Assembly: GCA_026874595.1 (NCBI GenBank)
Contig: CM049307.1
Coordinates: 34,700,862 to 34,764,861 of the forward strand
From: Sipunculus nudus
Lineage: Eukaryota; Annelida; Sipuncula; Golfingiida; Sipunculidae
Direction: 5' to 3'
DNA length: 64,000 bases
The translations under genes were made by a program, and so were the position numbers. A model generated the notes under the pieces. The model was given only the letters and a program-made list of their open reading frames with translations. It ran no database searches and was not told the DNA's origin. Positions 14,801 to 20,800 of the stretch are shown here, piece by piece. Each line of letters begins with the position of its first letter. The first letter of the stretch is position 1.

Positions 14801-17800
14801 CCTCATCTGGAACCTATTACAACAAGAATGTCACAGATTACTACTGCTACTACTGGCATCCCACAAAATTTAAACATGCACACTTTGTGAATCTTCATGC
14901 TAACATGTGGTAGGCATTTTGTGATGCTTTGAAATTCATGATATTCACAAAATGGGAATTTATCCCCCAAATAAAATCTACATGAAAAAAGATGCCTTAT
15001 CTACACAGATAAATGATAATTCACACTATCACCAAATAGACATTTCATGTACATTTTTTTCCCGTCTGAAGCTAATAATTTAAAAAGATTGATATTGAAA
15101 ATAATAAGATATATTTTATATTACTCAAAAATTACAGATGATAAATAAAACAGATCTTTCATTTAAAGGAATAAGAATTTGAATTAATTCCACATTCAGG
15201 TAGGTCTTTTTTCCAAATGTTAAGATTTTGTGCTTATATTAAATAATTAATATAATTACTCCTGGGATATACTTGTAGATGATCCTGATAATGGAAACAT
15301 TCACTGGATTAAAAATGAAATTGAAAGTTTGACCACACTTATATCAAGCCAACCACAGTAAGCAAACATATTACAATACATATTATCCATGTATTTGTTC
15401 CTACCTCTATGGTTATCTGGTGAAGGAACACACTGATGATGTCAGCACTGACATCTTTATTGGATTTAGCTGTAGCCATAGTGACCACTGGCCACGTGTC
15501 ATCTTTGCGTGTGGTCTTGGTTACATCTACAAAGTTATGTGCGACTCTGGGATCCTCTCCAAGTCCATCACGATCCTTCCCCAAGGCGTCAATGTTTAAC
15601 AGCAGAAGCACACAAGGAGCACAACTCTGTGCTGTTTTATACAGAGTAGAGGTTTTTGTATCAGAAAACTGCATGATGTCAGATGCAGAGGATAATAATT
15701 TTTTTTTCAAAGAAACCAGAGCTCAGATTCTTTGTATATCTCTTTCATGTGCAGAGATACTGAATTCAATAAAAAATATGCTGTGTCATGAAAAAAAATC
15801 AGCAATGTTTCTTCACATATCACTCTTGCCATTAAATAACACTTTCGATACAAAATTTCGAATCAAAGTAGTAGTCTAACTGATAAGCTTATTATGTTTA
15901 CCTTTATGGTAAGAAATGTAAAAACCAAAAGGTATGATACACCACAGGTAACATTGTACCATTTTTATACTGTGACTTTCTCATTTATCACACAATTTGG
16001 TATTAGTCTACTTGCAACAAGACTGTACCTCACAGGTAAGCTGAAAATTTTTGTTTGAGGTATTTTTATCCCATTTTCCTGGGTTACTTCAGTCAGCAAC
16101 ATCATAAAGGAAGACATAATAACATTAAACCCACCTTGAAGAAAGGCAGCCTTTATCCTTGCCTCTGTGGCTCCTGATGTCTCTCCACACAAATTATGGC
16201 AGTTTTCCTGAAGCAAAATTTTAGAGAAGCTCAGGACATAGTCTTTCATAACATTGCCTTTAAGTGTTGGCTTTCTTTTAAGTTTTGCTTTTCAAATTAA
16301 TGACTTTCTGACTTTATTCACAAGGTTCATGTATTCAGCTATACCACAGACTTGTCCATATACAATATGATCACAAAGTTAATATAACATGCTGTTTATA
16401 TCTAGATAACTTACACGTGATAACCCTTGCTCTAATGTAATTTTAACTGACCACAAAAAAAAGGTATCTATCTGTTTTTTTTTTTTACATAAGCAAGAGA
16501 TGTAATACCAAAATGTGATCTTACTGTGACAATATGGAGGTTGAGCTGTCTTGCCATGGAATGTACCAGAGAAGACTTGCCACAGCCTGCTGGTCCTGTA
16601 ATCAGGGTGGCTGGTGCCATTTCTTCATCAATCCTGAAAGCAAAAAGTCATCCAGTATAAAACTAGATGTGTCGGAACGACACGAATGCCCCCGCCTGGG
16701 GCAAATCAGAAAAATTTGTAAAATTTTGAACAATTTTTTAAGTTCAGGAGGTGTTGTATGGTCAAAAGTAGGTCAACAAGGGCAAAATGCAAACTCCATC
16801 TGTAACAGGTCATTATCAAGCAACACACCAAAAATCATGCCAGTATATGCAGGCATTGTGAAAAAAAGTCCATACATGTGCATTTTCCATAAAAATTTCT
16901 GTCTTTCATGAAATTTTCTATGTTTAGGAGCCATAAAACAATCAAAAGCAGTTCAAACGCGAACTCGATCTGTAACTGTCATTATCTGCCCACACATAAA
17001 AAATCAGGGTGGTATCTGCAGGTATTGAGGAAAAAAAGTCAGTACATATGCATTTGTTATGAAAATGTCTATTTTTCATGAAACTTTCTATGTTCAGGAG
17101 CAGTCAAATGGTCAAAAGTAGGTCAACTGGGACAAAACAAGAACTCGATCTGTAACTGGTCATTATCTGCCTACACACCAAAAATCAGGCCCGTATCTGC
17201 AGGCACTGCGAAAAAAAAGTCCATACATGTGCACTTTTTTATGAAATATTCTATGTTAGAGCACAGTCAAACGGTCAAAAGTAGGTCAACTGGGACAAAA
17301 CATGAACTCGATCTGTAACTGGTCATTATCTGCCTACACACCAAAAATCAGGCCAATATCTGCAGGTATTGAGATGAAAAGTCTGTACAAGTGTATTTGT
17401 CATGAAAATTTATATTTTACATGACACTTTCCAAGTTCAGGAGCCTTTTAACAGTCAAAAGTAGGTCATCTGGGACGAAACGCGAACTAGATCTGTAACT
17501 GGTCAATATCTGCCCACACACCAAAAATCAGGCCAATATCTGCAGGCATTGCGAAAAAAAGTCCGTACATGTGTATTTGTCTTGAAATTTCATATTTTCA
17601 TGAAATTTTCTATGTTCAGGAGCCGTAAAACGGTCAAAAGTAGGTCAACTGGGAGGAAACGCGAACTCGATCTGTAACTGGTCTATATCTGCCCACACAC
17701 CAAAAATCAGGCCAATATCTGCAGGTATTGCGAAAAAAAGTCCGTACATGTGTATCTGTCATGAATATTTCTATTTTTCATGAAATTTTCTAAGTTTAGG

Positions 17801-20800
17801 AGCCGTAAAACGGTCAAAAGTAGGTCAACCAGGAGGAAATGCGAACTCAATCTGTAACTGGTCTATATCTGCCCACACACCAAAAATCAGGCCAATATCT
17901 GCAGGCATTGCGAAAAAAAGTCCGTACAACTGTTTGATTTCAGAATGACGGAAGGACGGACATGGGTAAAACTATATGCCCCGGCCACATTGTGGCGGGG
18001 GCATAAAAAGAACCCTGCAAGAGTGCATAATATGCCCATCTTATGTCTTGTGACCTCTGACCTCAATAAATATGCACAAATTACTGCCAAAATACAACTA
18101 AAATTTTCAATCCTCTGCCTTTAGTTTCTCACTTTTCTTAATAAGAGACCAATGACATCTAACTTAAGTGAGTACTGAATAGGATGACATTAACAAATAA
18201 ATTATGTGATAACAATGAAATATTGTTATTACCTATTGTAGGTTTAACCCAGGGTTAACGGTCTGTCATGAAGACATGAAAGTGATATCCCAATATTTAT
18301 TCCCTAATATACCTCAAGAAAACATTCTACAGAGTATGGGCACTTACATGATGCATACCTGCAAAAGTATTTTATCTCTATATCACCAATACACGTCTAT
18401 CAGTATATTAAGAAAGTTTGTAAGTGAATCTTTATCCAAAGTGTAACAAGTTTCCTCAACTGCTAGATCCCCTTGACTGATGTTTATAATAGACAACACA
18501 GCTGTTATGTATCCTGTGAGGATAATAAGAAATACATACCCTGAAGAAATCTGTGGCAGAACAAGGTCACAAAGGTCTCTGTGGTACTTATCCAGGCCTG
18601 GAGGCATCTCATGGCCAAAGAAGGGGTTTGGTGGGATTGGGATGTAGCTGTGGATGGATCCATCCTGAAAAACAAAGATGTAACTGTAACATAAGCTCCA
18701 AGAAAGATCTATAAATTTATTTTAATAATTTTGTCAACAATGATTAAGAACTCATTTATATATAAAAAGCAATGGCTGAAATATTTTTGAGGTGAAAAGG
18801 GCCTACAAAAACAGAAATGTGGTGTTTCCATAATGATAGTTGTCATTGTCTGAATGACACATTCTTAAATTTGATTTCTTATGTATTATTTTATTATTTG
18901 GACAAATAATTTTACATTTTTCTTATAAAGTAAATATAAACTAATACAACGTATTTAAAAAGGTTGGACTTACCTGAAATACACTTGTTGTATTTGCATT
19001 AACAATCCATGTGACACTTTTGCCATGAGAAGGCAGGACCTTCTTCACTTTAAAATAGACTACAGAGGAACTGGATGAAGCACCAAGTGTTGCCCCTGTG
19101 CTAGGCTCTTCTATAAATGCATATTTTACGTACATTTTCAATATAAATTTACAATCACTACCCCAAATGTGTCTAAAATCCTTGAAAAAAAAGGACAAGA
19201 CCACTGGTTTTTTAACACTTCATAACTGTATATCTTCAACGCAAACATAAATGAAAAAAGAGATAGAATATGACTTAAAGCCAAATCAAGTATTCTTTTC
19301 AAAGGGATACTTTTGTGATCAATATGTATTAAAACTCATTACACCAGCACTTTCAGTTATTTTATAAAAAACTGATTTACTGCTTAATGCTGGCTTTAAT
19401 TAATCATACAGACATTTTAGAACATCATTAATCAAGTATTTTGAAAGAGGTTTAAAAACACAATACCTTCAGCTGGGAGGCAAAGGATATCACCTATTGA
19501 GACCAGCCTGAAGCAAAATTTAAAATGTATTTACCTTAATTAAAAATTTAAAACAAAAGACCAATGGGTCACGGGACTCAGCTGAATTTTGGAAAATTTT
19601 AGCAAATGCAAAATATACTTATTTCTTTTGAATTTTCATATATATTAGCATTTGATATGCTGAGAAGAAATGGCCCTGCTGAAATGAAACCCTGTAAATT
19701 ATAGAATACTGGACATGAGCCAAAGTATAATAATAAACAATAATTTATAAGCTGAAATAAAATTCTCTAAAAAAAAATCAAATGAGCATAAACAAAATTT
19801 AATAAGCATGTTTAAACAAGCCAATTAGGTATCAATCACATCTGCACTGTGTAATAAACGAAACCTGTCGCCTGAAACCATTTAATGATGCAATAAGGAA
19901 AAAATGGGCCTTAGTGTTATATGATAGGATACAATTCATAAACAAATATGTGTGAATTTAATTAAGTTTTTTTCAACAGATAAATATATGGCCATATGAG
20001 CTTAAAATTAATACAACGAAAGTTTGCCCAATATTCCTGATTAACTAAGTTTAACAGTGCTATTCATATCAAGGCCCAGCCAACTTTAAGAGATATAAAT
20101 GGAACACTACAAAGTATTTATATCTTATTAAATCTTAACATTTTAAAGAGCACTTACATAGATCCTAATATTTTATTAGGATTCAAATCCTGAAAAATTG
20201 TTTGTTTAAAAAATATTTAAATATTGTTCAAGTTTAAACAAAAAAAAAAGAATTTTAAATTGAAATTATAAGATTCATCTTGTTTTTAAGTCCTGTGTAT
20301 TGAAGGGGTGGGAGGGGAGGAGTCTCTGGTGTTACTGCTGGTTGCTGAAAAAAATGCAAAATTATAAGATTTGTCTTGCTTATTGTACAGGTTTGTCAAC
20401 AGAATGGGGTGGGGGGGGGGGGGGGGGGAAGAGAAAGAGAGAAAAAGGCTCTCTTTGGTACCTGTAATCACTGCAGACAACCTGACGCGGCTCACCTAGA
20501 CAGAGGGAGCTGGCCAAGAGTGAAGTGATTTAACATAACAGCCTGGGGAGCTGAGACCTAGCTCTAGCACACTGCATACCACTGGGTTGATGTACAATAC
20601 TTGACAAGGTGCTTGAAAACTTGAATAAAATCTTCATTTTTAATGAAGTGAAAAACTTTTTTGGAAAATGTGTATACTGAGTTTCGTGAAAATCTATAGG
20701 AAAATCCATGAAAATCCATAGTCACCACACTGTCTTCAAGTGACTTGCAGCGACAGCACAAAGTAGCCTAGTGACCCATGGGCCATTACATTATTAAACA

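Follow-up and report, generated by a model that had tools for sequence, protein, structure and literature searches.

The window analysed here is a 64,000-nucleotide stretch of the Sipunculus nudus genome (contig CM049307.1, positions 34,700,862 to 34,764,861) that carries exons of two genes and a series of dispersed repeats. All recognised exons lie on the - strand, those of an AAA-ATPase gene at ~9-23 kb, a GH31 exon at 37 kb and a trefoil exon at 62 kb. We take the AAA-ATPase gene to be peroxin-6-like, and the trefoil exon, on the same strand, probably forms the 5' part of the GH31 glucosidase gene. Between exons of the former lies, at 16661-18009, a complete copy (1349 bp) of a dispersed repeat, here called F3. 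A first-pass annotation had united F3 with five other repeats of the window (together F1-F6) as a Helentron/pearl-type assemblage of rolling-circle transposons, and was silent on the one-strand arrangement of the elements it named. We find that these repeats are almost certainly non-autonomous Helentrons (HINEs), and that the orientation of Helentron-type elements very probably follows the strand of the host gene.

Element polarity in introns

An exhaustive end scan placed all 25 F1-F6 ends of the window on the + strand, and the GACGGA words of the window are distributed likewise, with 22 on + and 0 on -. Strands of F3, F1, F2 and F4 are given for the window (Table 1) in the orientation of the first-pass annotation; the published orientation of F3 is the - strand, that of the exons. 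Gene strands were inferred from protein domains, not annotation, and the sample comprises one contig, 12 myosin genes and the two window genes. For the myosin introns, of which 27 stretches (198 kb) were fetched from the 12 genes, the strand was taken from the myosin exons.

The tie to the gene strand is observed directly: the published element strand is the host coding strand in 23 of 24 intronic elements from 10 genes. In the myosin introns, 15/16 distinct F1-F4 and F7 elements that show a recognisable end (nested F7 excluded) follow the coding strand, with one agreeing element each in genes A, H, K and N, two in B, four each in C and D, and one agreeing plus one opposite in F; genes E, G, I and M were fetched and held no scored ends. 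The two window genes have eight elements between their exons, and all eight obey the rule (F6, F3 and a diverged start of F2; F2, F3, F2, F1 and F2). A two-sided sign test gives ~3e-6 by elements (hand calculation) and ~0.004 by genes (9/9 uniform genes, plus one mixed 1:1). The upstream bound of the AAA-ATPase gene rests on open reading frames (ORFs) without Pfam matches, and ten + strand ORFs of the window, a subset of its ORFs, gave no Pfam family above the cut-off.

The count of 23/24 omits three F7 copies that sit inside other elements and all agree, the F5 and F8 ends, and window elements not assigned to a gene span, namely F4, the F5 at 8247, the F1 at 25562, the ends left of 8.9 kb and that at 63210. 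Second F2 3' ends (window 39600, L013:5428/5648) were treated as part of counted elements. Stretches L019-L020 of gene D were treated as intronic, with exons 84 kb apart on one strand; minus gene D the count is 19/20. F6 was included though unconfirmed as a family, and minus F6 the count is 22/23. Adding F5 and F8 end words, which were chosen after copies were seen, brings the myosin count to 18/19.

Ion-channel and kinase exons were also overlaid by eye on the listed element positions, and these cases remain outside the count. Agreement is seen for a kinase exon (-) at 11.192 Mb of contig C1 with three F1 copies (+) within 15 kb and for a kinase exon (+) at 25.711 Mb of C17 with an F3 copy (-) within 15 kb, both with intron status unassigned, as well as for an exon (-) at 60.895 Mb of C1 with an F7 (+) within 30 kb. 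A kinase exon (-) on C6 disagrees with an F3 (-) at ~50 kb. A PGM_PMM_I exon (+) near 3.43 Mb of C1, presumably from phosphoacetylglucosamine mutase, lies inside a '-' run and agrees; it too is uncounted.

Repeats common to these introns form 22 groups, 13 uniform and nine with both orientations. The groups recognised as Helentron stand at 22:1, 8:0 (F3/F7), 7:0 (F5), 5:0 (F4), 4:0 (F1) and 3:0 (F8). Of the nine mixed groups, two (22:1 and one 1:1) owe their second orientation to a single exceptional F2 element; none of the remaining seven (3:1, 2:1 and five 1:1) was identified as Helentron, and the three of these that were inspected are a miniature inverted-repeat transposable element (MITE), an element bounded by terminal inverted repeats (TIRs) and an unclassed repeat. 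Several small uniform groups are unclassified. A genome-wide control with a non-Helentron MITE was too sparse, at 63 exact copies. Strand asymmetry of the T-run target as the cause of polarity is ruled out by the sense strand of these introns, where runs of at least five number 471 for T versus 458 for A.

Polarity domains on contig C1

Neighbour counts on C1 used the first 100 places listed for each of F1, F2, F3 and F7, all 400 of which lie on this contig. Up to 41.8 Mb, consecutive listed copies <30 kb apart share one orientation in 149/157 pairs, whether they belong to different families (72/76) or the same family (77/81). Agreement among listed pairs is 36/51 at 30-60 kb, 29/36 at 60-100 kb, 25/42 at 100-200 kb and 18/35 at 200-500 kb, and listed neighbouring F3 copies <50 kb apart agree 17/17. 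These pairs reflect polarity domains that can be read directly from the contig. At C1:0-5.15 Mb, 168 listed copies fall into 15 orientation runs versus 54 expected (z -9.6), and thinning to 10 kb spacing leaves 11 runs versus 36.8 expected (z -7.4). The longest domain, C1:96424-1146483 (1.05 Mb), holds 68 listed F1, F2, F3 and F7 copies, 68 of them '+'. Genome-wide strand totals are near equal (e.g. 6521 vs 6416 for F2), and the orientation bias is therefore local. Locus L036, within the longest domain, is a long tandem array with ~1 kb steps; none of its ORFs is among those tested for Pfam families (see Discussion).

Families, ends and hairpins

The F3 copy at 16661-18009 has at least 69 genome matches (40 of 4914 candidates scored), and the exact 23 bp F3 start word occurs 1139 + 1127 = 2266 times in the 1.43 Gb genome. 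Exact copies number 5385 for the F1 5' end word, 12,937 for the F2 3' end word and 22 for the F4 3' end word, and F5-type sequence forms seven blocks in introns of five genes. Five of the six proposed families (F1-F5) are borne out by such counts; F6 lacks such confirmation, its 3' word having a single exact copy in the genome, inside the window itself. Two additional families have a similar plan: F7, whose 38-base end word has 976 exact copies, and F8, judged by eye, which was found in L008, L012 and the window near 2.5 kb. F7 is nested in F3 in equal orientation at L010, L020 and L033, a composite that seems to have travelled as one unit.

Every hairpin quoted in the first-pass annotation was found on the + strand of the window, for F1 at 25566 and 54647, F2 at 38888, 49633 and 63216, F3 at 16669 and 39862, F4 at 33180, F5 at 8258 and F6 at 11904. 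The AAC(A/T)AG start proposed for all six holds for F1-F4, and F5 and F6 deviate. The families mostly lack a common core, apart from a chimera at 63210-63545, in which an F2-like start is joined to an F1 3' end; this suggests exchange of termini. Perfect subterminal inverted repeats (subTIRs) were found in F1 (11 bp), F2 (12 bp) and F3 (11 bp), and random sequence pairs attain an 11 bp inverted match in 0.17%. In F4 and F6 the exact inverted match is just 7 bp each, a length that 22% of random pairs attain.

The palindrome stems are 4-6 bp long, lie at the end opposite the T run and start at nucleotide 5 (F1), 7 (F2), 9 (F3), 15 (F4) and 11 (F5); the 4 bp stem of F4 is within chance. The probability of a hairpin arising by chance in the first 32 nt is 0.14 for F1, F2 and F5, 0.04 for F3, 0.43 for F4 and 0.002 for F6. 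Multiplied across the six families these give ~8e-8, an optimistic product because the families had been picked for having hairpins. The 5' hairpins (in the orientation of the first-pass annotation) are thus weak singly and convincing only jointly, with this selection caveat. Tandem cores are present in F1, F3 and F4; pearl and other tandem-core, MITE-like elements of bivalves similarly carry tandem cores between short modules. GACGGA- or GATGGA-type tracts are present in F1-F4 and F6, and GACGGA reads as GTCC on the opposite strand.

Identity as HINEs

Excerpts of published work, cited here by PMC identifier, describe an architecture that matches these repeats. In Cg_HINE of Crassostrea gigas, the left flank comprises the 5' subTIR, its inverted repeat and a GTCC-type microsatellite, followed by tandem repeats, the 3' subTIR and a palindrome (PMC7492417). 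By this convention the first-pass annotation had assigned the ends in reverse: its 5' hairpin is the 3' palindrome on the other strand (PMC7492417), and its 3' hairpin is the 5' subTIR plus inverted repeat. Nor is that hairpin a new unifying trait, palindromes at both ends having already been published for Helitron2 and HINEs (PMC4067079, PMC5148889). HINE families have subTIRs of at least 11 bp (PMC4067079), a length reached by F1, F2 and F3 and not by F4 or F6. A 3' palindrome of the HINE kind is present, in F1 and F2 slightly nearer the terminus than the 8 bp of mite families (~8-35 bp), as are the microsatellite with optional tandem core and insertion at TT or T runs without target site duplication (TSD). 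The 3' ends of F3 and F4 are CTAG then TT, and the opposite end opens with a T run ahead of the subTIR.

Nineteen end pairs were joined to search for empty sites; six matched across the junction, and five of those six aligned. For the F2 at L035:4823-7337, two paralogous empty sites (94% identity) reveal an A-run insertion with zero duplicated bases. The L020 insertions of F3 and F1 are consistent with no TSD, at 72-87% identity and with one flank of just 20 bp. Two further alignments were set aside, those of the L023 F2 (76%, gappy) and of L035:3829 (its 3' end common to the 4823 element, a doubtful pairing). The filled-versus-empty comparison, proposed with the first-pass annotation, thus found no TSD at the sites read, and the insertion point is T/T of the published element strand, inside T runs, without target duplication.

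The assemblage proposed at the outset is accordingly supported by subTIRs, the GACGGA tract, tandem cores, hairpins, the lack of TSDs and the presence of Helentron proteins in the genome. Three other identities were rejected. A canonical Helitron1 (5' TC, 3' CTRR, A/T target) does not fit, as there is no TC end and the clear insertion is at T/T in an A/T run. Cut-and-paste TIR transposons and MITEs do not fit the missing TSD or the inverted repeats, which are subterminal and at one end part of a hairpin. A new element class is ruled out by the match to the published HINE architecture. F1-F5, F7 and F8 are best explained as HINE-type rolling-circle transposons with an ordinary, already known architecture; the polarity alone looks new.

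Scoring 150 of 195 candidates gave at least 143 matches to the Rep-type domain PF14214 in this genome. L003, L004 and L039-L042 contain long open Helentron frames (Rep, OTU, DUF6570), with endonuclease in L041 and L042. L003 encodes DUF6570, OTU and PF14214, and L041, ~1.4 kb downstream, encodes an endonuclease domain (Exo_endo_phos); they represent one Helentron family. In its C11 copy, frame lengths indicate a single open frame of 2235 residues that ends with the endonuclease; in the C7 copy the frame is broken. The two copies are 96-99.5% alike across long compared blocks, which points to recent activity. By eye, many Rep-domain matches cluster in a small number of megabase-scale blocks on each chromosome (C1 63.9-71.8 Mb, C7 46-50 Mb, C8 22-36 Mb), unlike the dispersed short elements. 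The search for autonomous Helentrons with the same ends, as first proposed, thus yielded the Rep-type proteins; in two copies compared up- and downstream, the sequences were still similar where the fetched DNA stopped, and no F-type end lay within it. Presumably, the Helentron proteins of this genome mobilise F1-F8.

Table 1. Repeats and exons of the window, with strands of F1-F4 as explained in the text
Feature	Position	Strand	Remarks
F3 element, complete	16661..18009	+	published orientation -
F3 palindrome GTGTCGGAACGACAC	16669..16683	+	3' palindrome by published convention, then CTAGTT
F3 subterminal repeat ATGCCCCCGCC	16686..16696	+	11 bp perfect inverted match to 17994-18004
F3 tandem core	16735..17928	+	units ~180 bp
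Simple repeat GACGGA (F3)	17947..17961	+	
F3 hairpin with inverted subTIR (17994-18004)	17975..18005	+	then A run
F5-type head fragment adjoining F3	18010..18098	+	gene-relative orientation as other F5 copies
F3, second element	39854..41225	+	91% identity
F1 element	25562..28530	+	core 177 bp x 4.3
F1 start and F1 3' end	54643..58474	+	treated as single element
F2 element	38882..39404	+	subTIR GCTCAGCTGACT; extra F2 3' end 39600-39623
F2 start and 3' end	49628..50774	+	
F2-type element	58510..61140	+	
F2 start, diverged	19553..19585	+	5 mismatches
Chimera, F2-like start / F1 3' end	63210..63545	+	
F4 element	33166..34340	+	core 145 bp x 5.7
F5 start with hairpin	8247..8460	+	
F6 element-like unit	11898..12200	+	3' word unique in genome
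F8-type element	1646..3362	-	opposite to other window elements; outside both gene spans; ends by eye
Exon with Walker A motif GPAGCGKS	16382..16624	-	assigned to AAA-ATPase gene; no Pfam match alone
AAA exon, AAA-ATPase gene	11511..11651	-	PF00004, 7.6e-7
GH31 glucosidase exon	37118..37375	-	PF01055, 7.3e-23
Trefoil exon	61373..62197	-	PF00088, 7.8e-10

Discussion

We put the probability that transcription explains the polarity at about 0.5. HUH nucleases act on single-stranded DNA only (PMC4778049), and an enzyme of this kind would require a single-stranded target. Transcription would open the non-template strand, as a bubble or R-loop; a single-stranded element would be joined to this strand at a T run, and replication would then copy it. 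With the element strand placed in the non-template strand, every family using one enzyme would take the same polarity, whatever its sequence. The published element strand would then be the coding strand, and long chromosome stretches would therefore hold unrelated families pointing one way. We infer the transferred strand from the published convention; transcription would be the source of single strands, and endogenous Helentrons would be the source of the enzyme. For Helraiser, a bat Helitron1, insertions in the most highly expressed genes are enriched 2.1-fold in bodies and 7.3-fold in promoters, and the authors of that study suggested that single strands may in part come from melting linked to transcription (PMC4778049).

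The main rival to transcription-directed insertion is selection, in which both orientations insert and the opposite ones, by causing premature polyadenylation or cryptic splicing, harm transcripts and are lost. Orientation bias is established for intronic LTR (long terminal repeat) elements and LINEs (long interspersed nuclear elements), and across 15 elements (30 kb) both AATAAA and ATTAAA signals (53 vs 30) and 5'-splice-like hexamers (26 vs 9) are commoner in the disfavoured orientation. In three intron F3 copies (with nested F7), AATAAA/ATTAAA number 2-4 in the disfavoured and 0-1 in the other orientation. Yet the two F3 copies of the window (F3a, F3b) have neither signal on either strand, and F3 neighbours agree without exception at <50 kb. 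Acceptor-like tracts run the other way, with 35 in the favoured and two in the disfavoured orientation, 21 of the 35 lying in the single exceptional element. Selection would also be expected mainly in genes, yet close neighbours agree at ~95% on the sampled contig, including a stretch with no Pfam family among its tested ORFs. We regard selection as a serious but unlikely explanation. Improbable to a greater degree is that replication sets the polarity, with the single-stranded element entering the lagging-strand template and the domains marking fork direction. IS608-type bacterial HUH elements do insert into the lagging-strand template. HUH nucleases cut single strands only, and a prokaryotic HUH transposase is noted to depend on lagging-strand replication (PMC4778049). 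Domains of up to ~1 Mb, including the 68/68 listed copies near the contig end, exceed typical genes, and the replication account is kept alive because the six ORFs tested from that domain gave no Pfam family. It sits poorly with the match to the gene strand in 9/9 uniform genes, which would be unexpected unless forks and genes almost invariably ran the same way, and with C1 runs of 82-125 kb that alternate.

Polarity might also be a by-product of duplicated blocks, or of composites moving jointly. The F7-in-F3 composites at L010, L020 and L033 are arrangements of this sort, as are the F3 and F1 of L020, which lie within an F2-type core. However, different families 2-30 kb apart agree in 67/71 listed C1 pairs, and the polarity persists after 10 kb thinning and across ten separate genes; we consider this origin very improbable.

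Several observations weigh against a strand rule set by transcription and peculiar to these elements. The single clear exception in the myosin introns is an F2 at L023:3828-7395, and the F8-type element at ~1.65-3.36 kb of the window is opposite to its neighbours, at a place where the gene strand is not assigned. Bare GACGGA words in the myosin introns lie on the expected strand in 44/57 cases, and in genes E, F and G 7/8 are on the unexpected strand. An unclassified repeat (window 37750-38082, with relatives in L007, L010, L013 and L030) has one orientation to the gene in 5/5 copies and no visible Helentron ends, so that polarity is perhaps not exclusive to Helentrons. At C1:96-1146 kb, none of six ORFs from three of four sampled 10 kb stretches (L034-L037) gave a Pfam family, and a transcription unit there is therefore unproven. 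The transferred strand rests on convention because the autonomous ends were not reached, and one published Helentron has its Rep ORF in reverse orientation (PMC4067079).

Among known systems, Cg_HINE is alike in architecture: it shares the 11-12 bp subTIR, complementary inverted repeat, microsatellite, tandem repeats, palindrome and several families per genome (PMC7492417). Its copies are described 'in both orientations', which is globally true here too, and the excerpts report no local polarity (PMC7492417). DINE-1/HINE and Helentrons share the TT target, T-rich ends and palindromes, and their host genomes likewise encode Rep/endonuclease proteins; that work identified autonomous partners whose ends match, and no gene-strand polarity is reported in the excerpts (PMC4067079). 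Helitron2 and FoHeli share asymmetric inverted repeats and, in some subgroups, hairpins at both ends, and differ in being fungal, in their termini and in the lack of an endonuclease in Helitron2 (PMC5148889). Helraiser shares the 3' hairpin followed by CTAG and T, the lack of TSD and the preference for expressed genes; unlike our elements it has a 5' TC and an AT target, and its orientation relative to transcription is unreported in the excerpts (PMC4778049). Neither local polarity nor orientation with respect to host transcription is reported in the excerpts of PMC13286980 or in the literature searched, which was seen in part and excluded most subscription papers. The element architecture is known, and the polarity relative to the host gene looks new.

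The source of the single-stranded target DNA of Helitrons and Helentrons is an open question, and a strong strand rule would point to transcription. The rule described here (23/24 in genes, ~95% of close neighbours on the sampled contig) is testable in any annotated HINE-rich genome. It is possible, at slightly less than even odds, that non-template integration operates genome-wide, in which case element orientation would be a lasting record of germline transcription direction, including that of long unannotated units such as C1:96-1146 kb. If this is true, abundant repeats become strand markers of germline transcription, which would aid the discovery of long unannotated transcription units.

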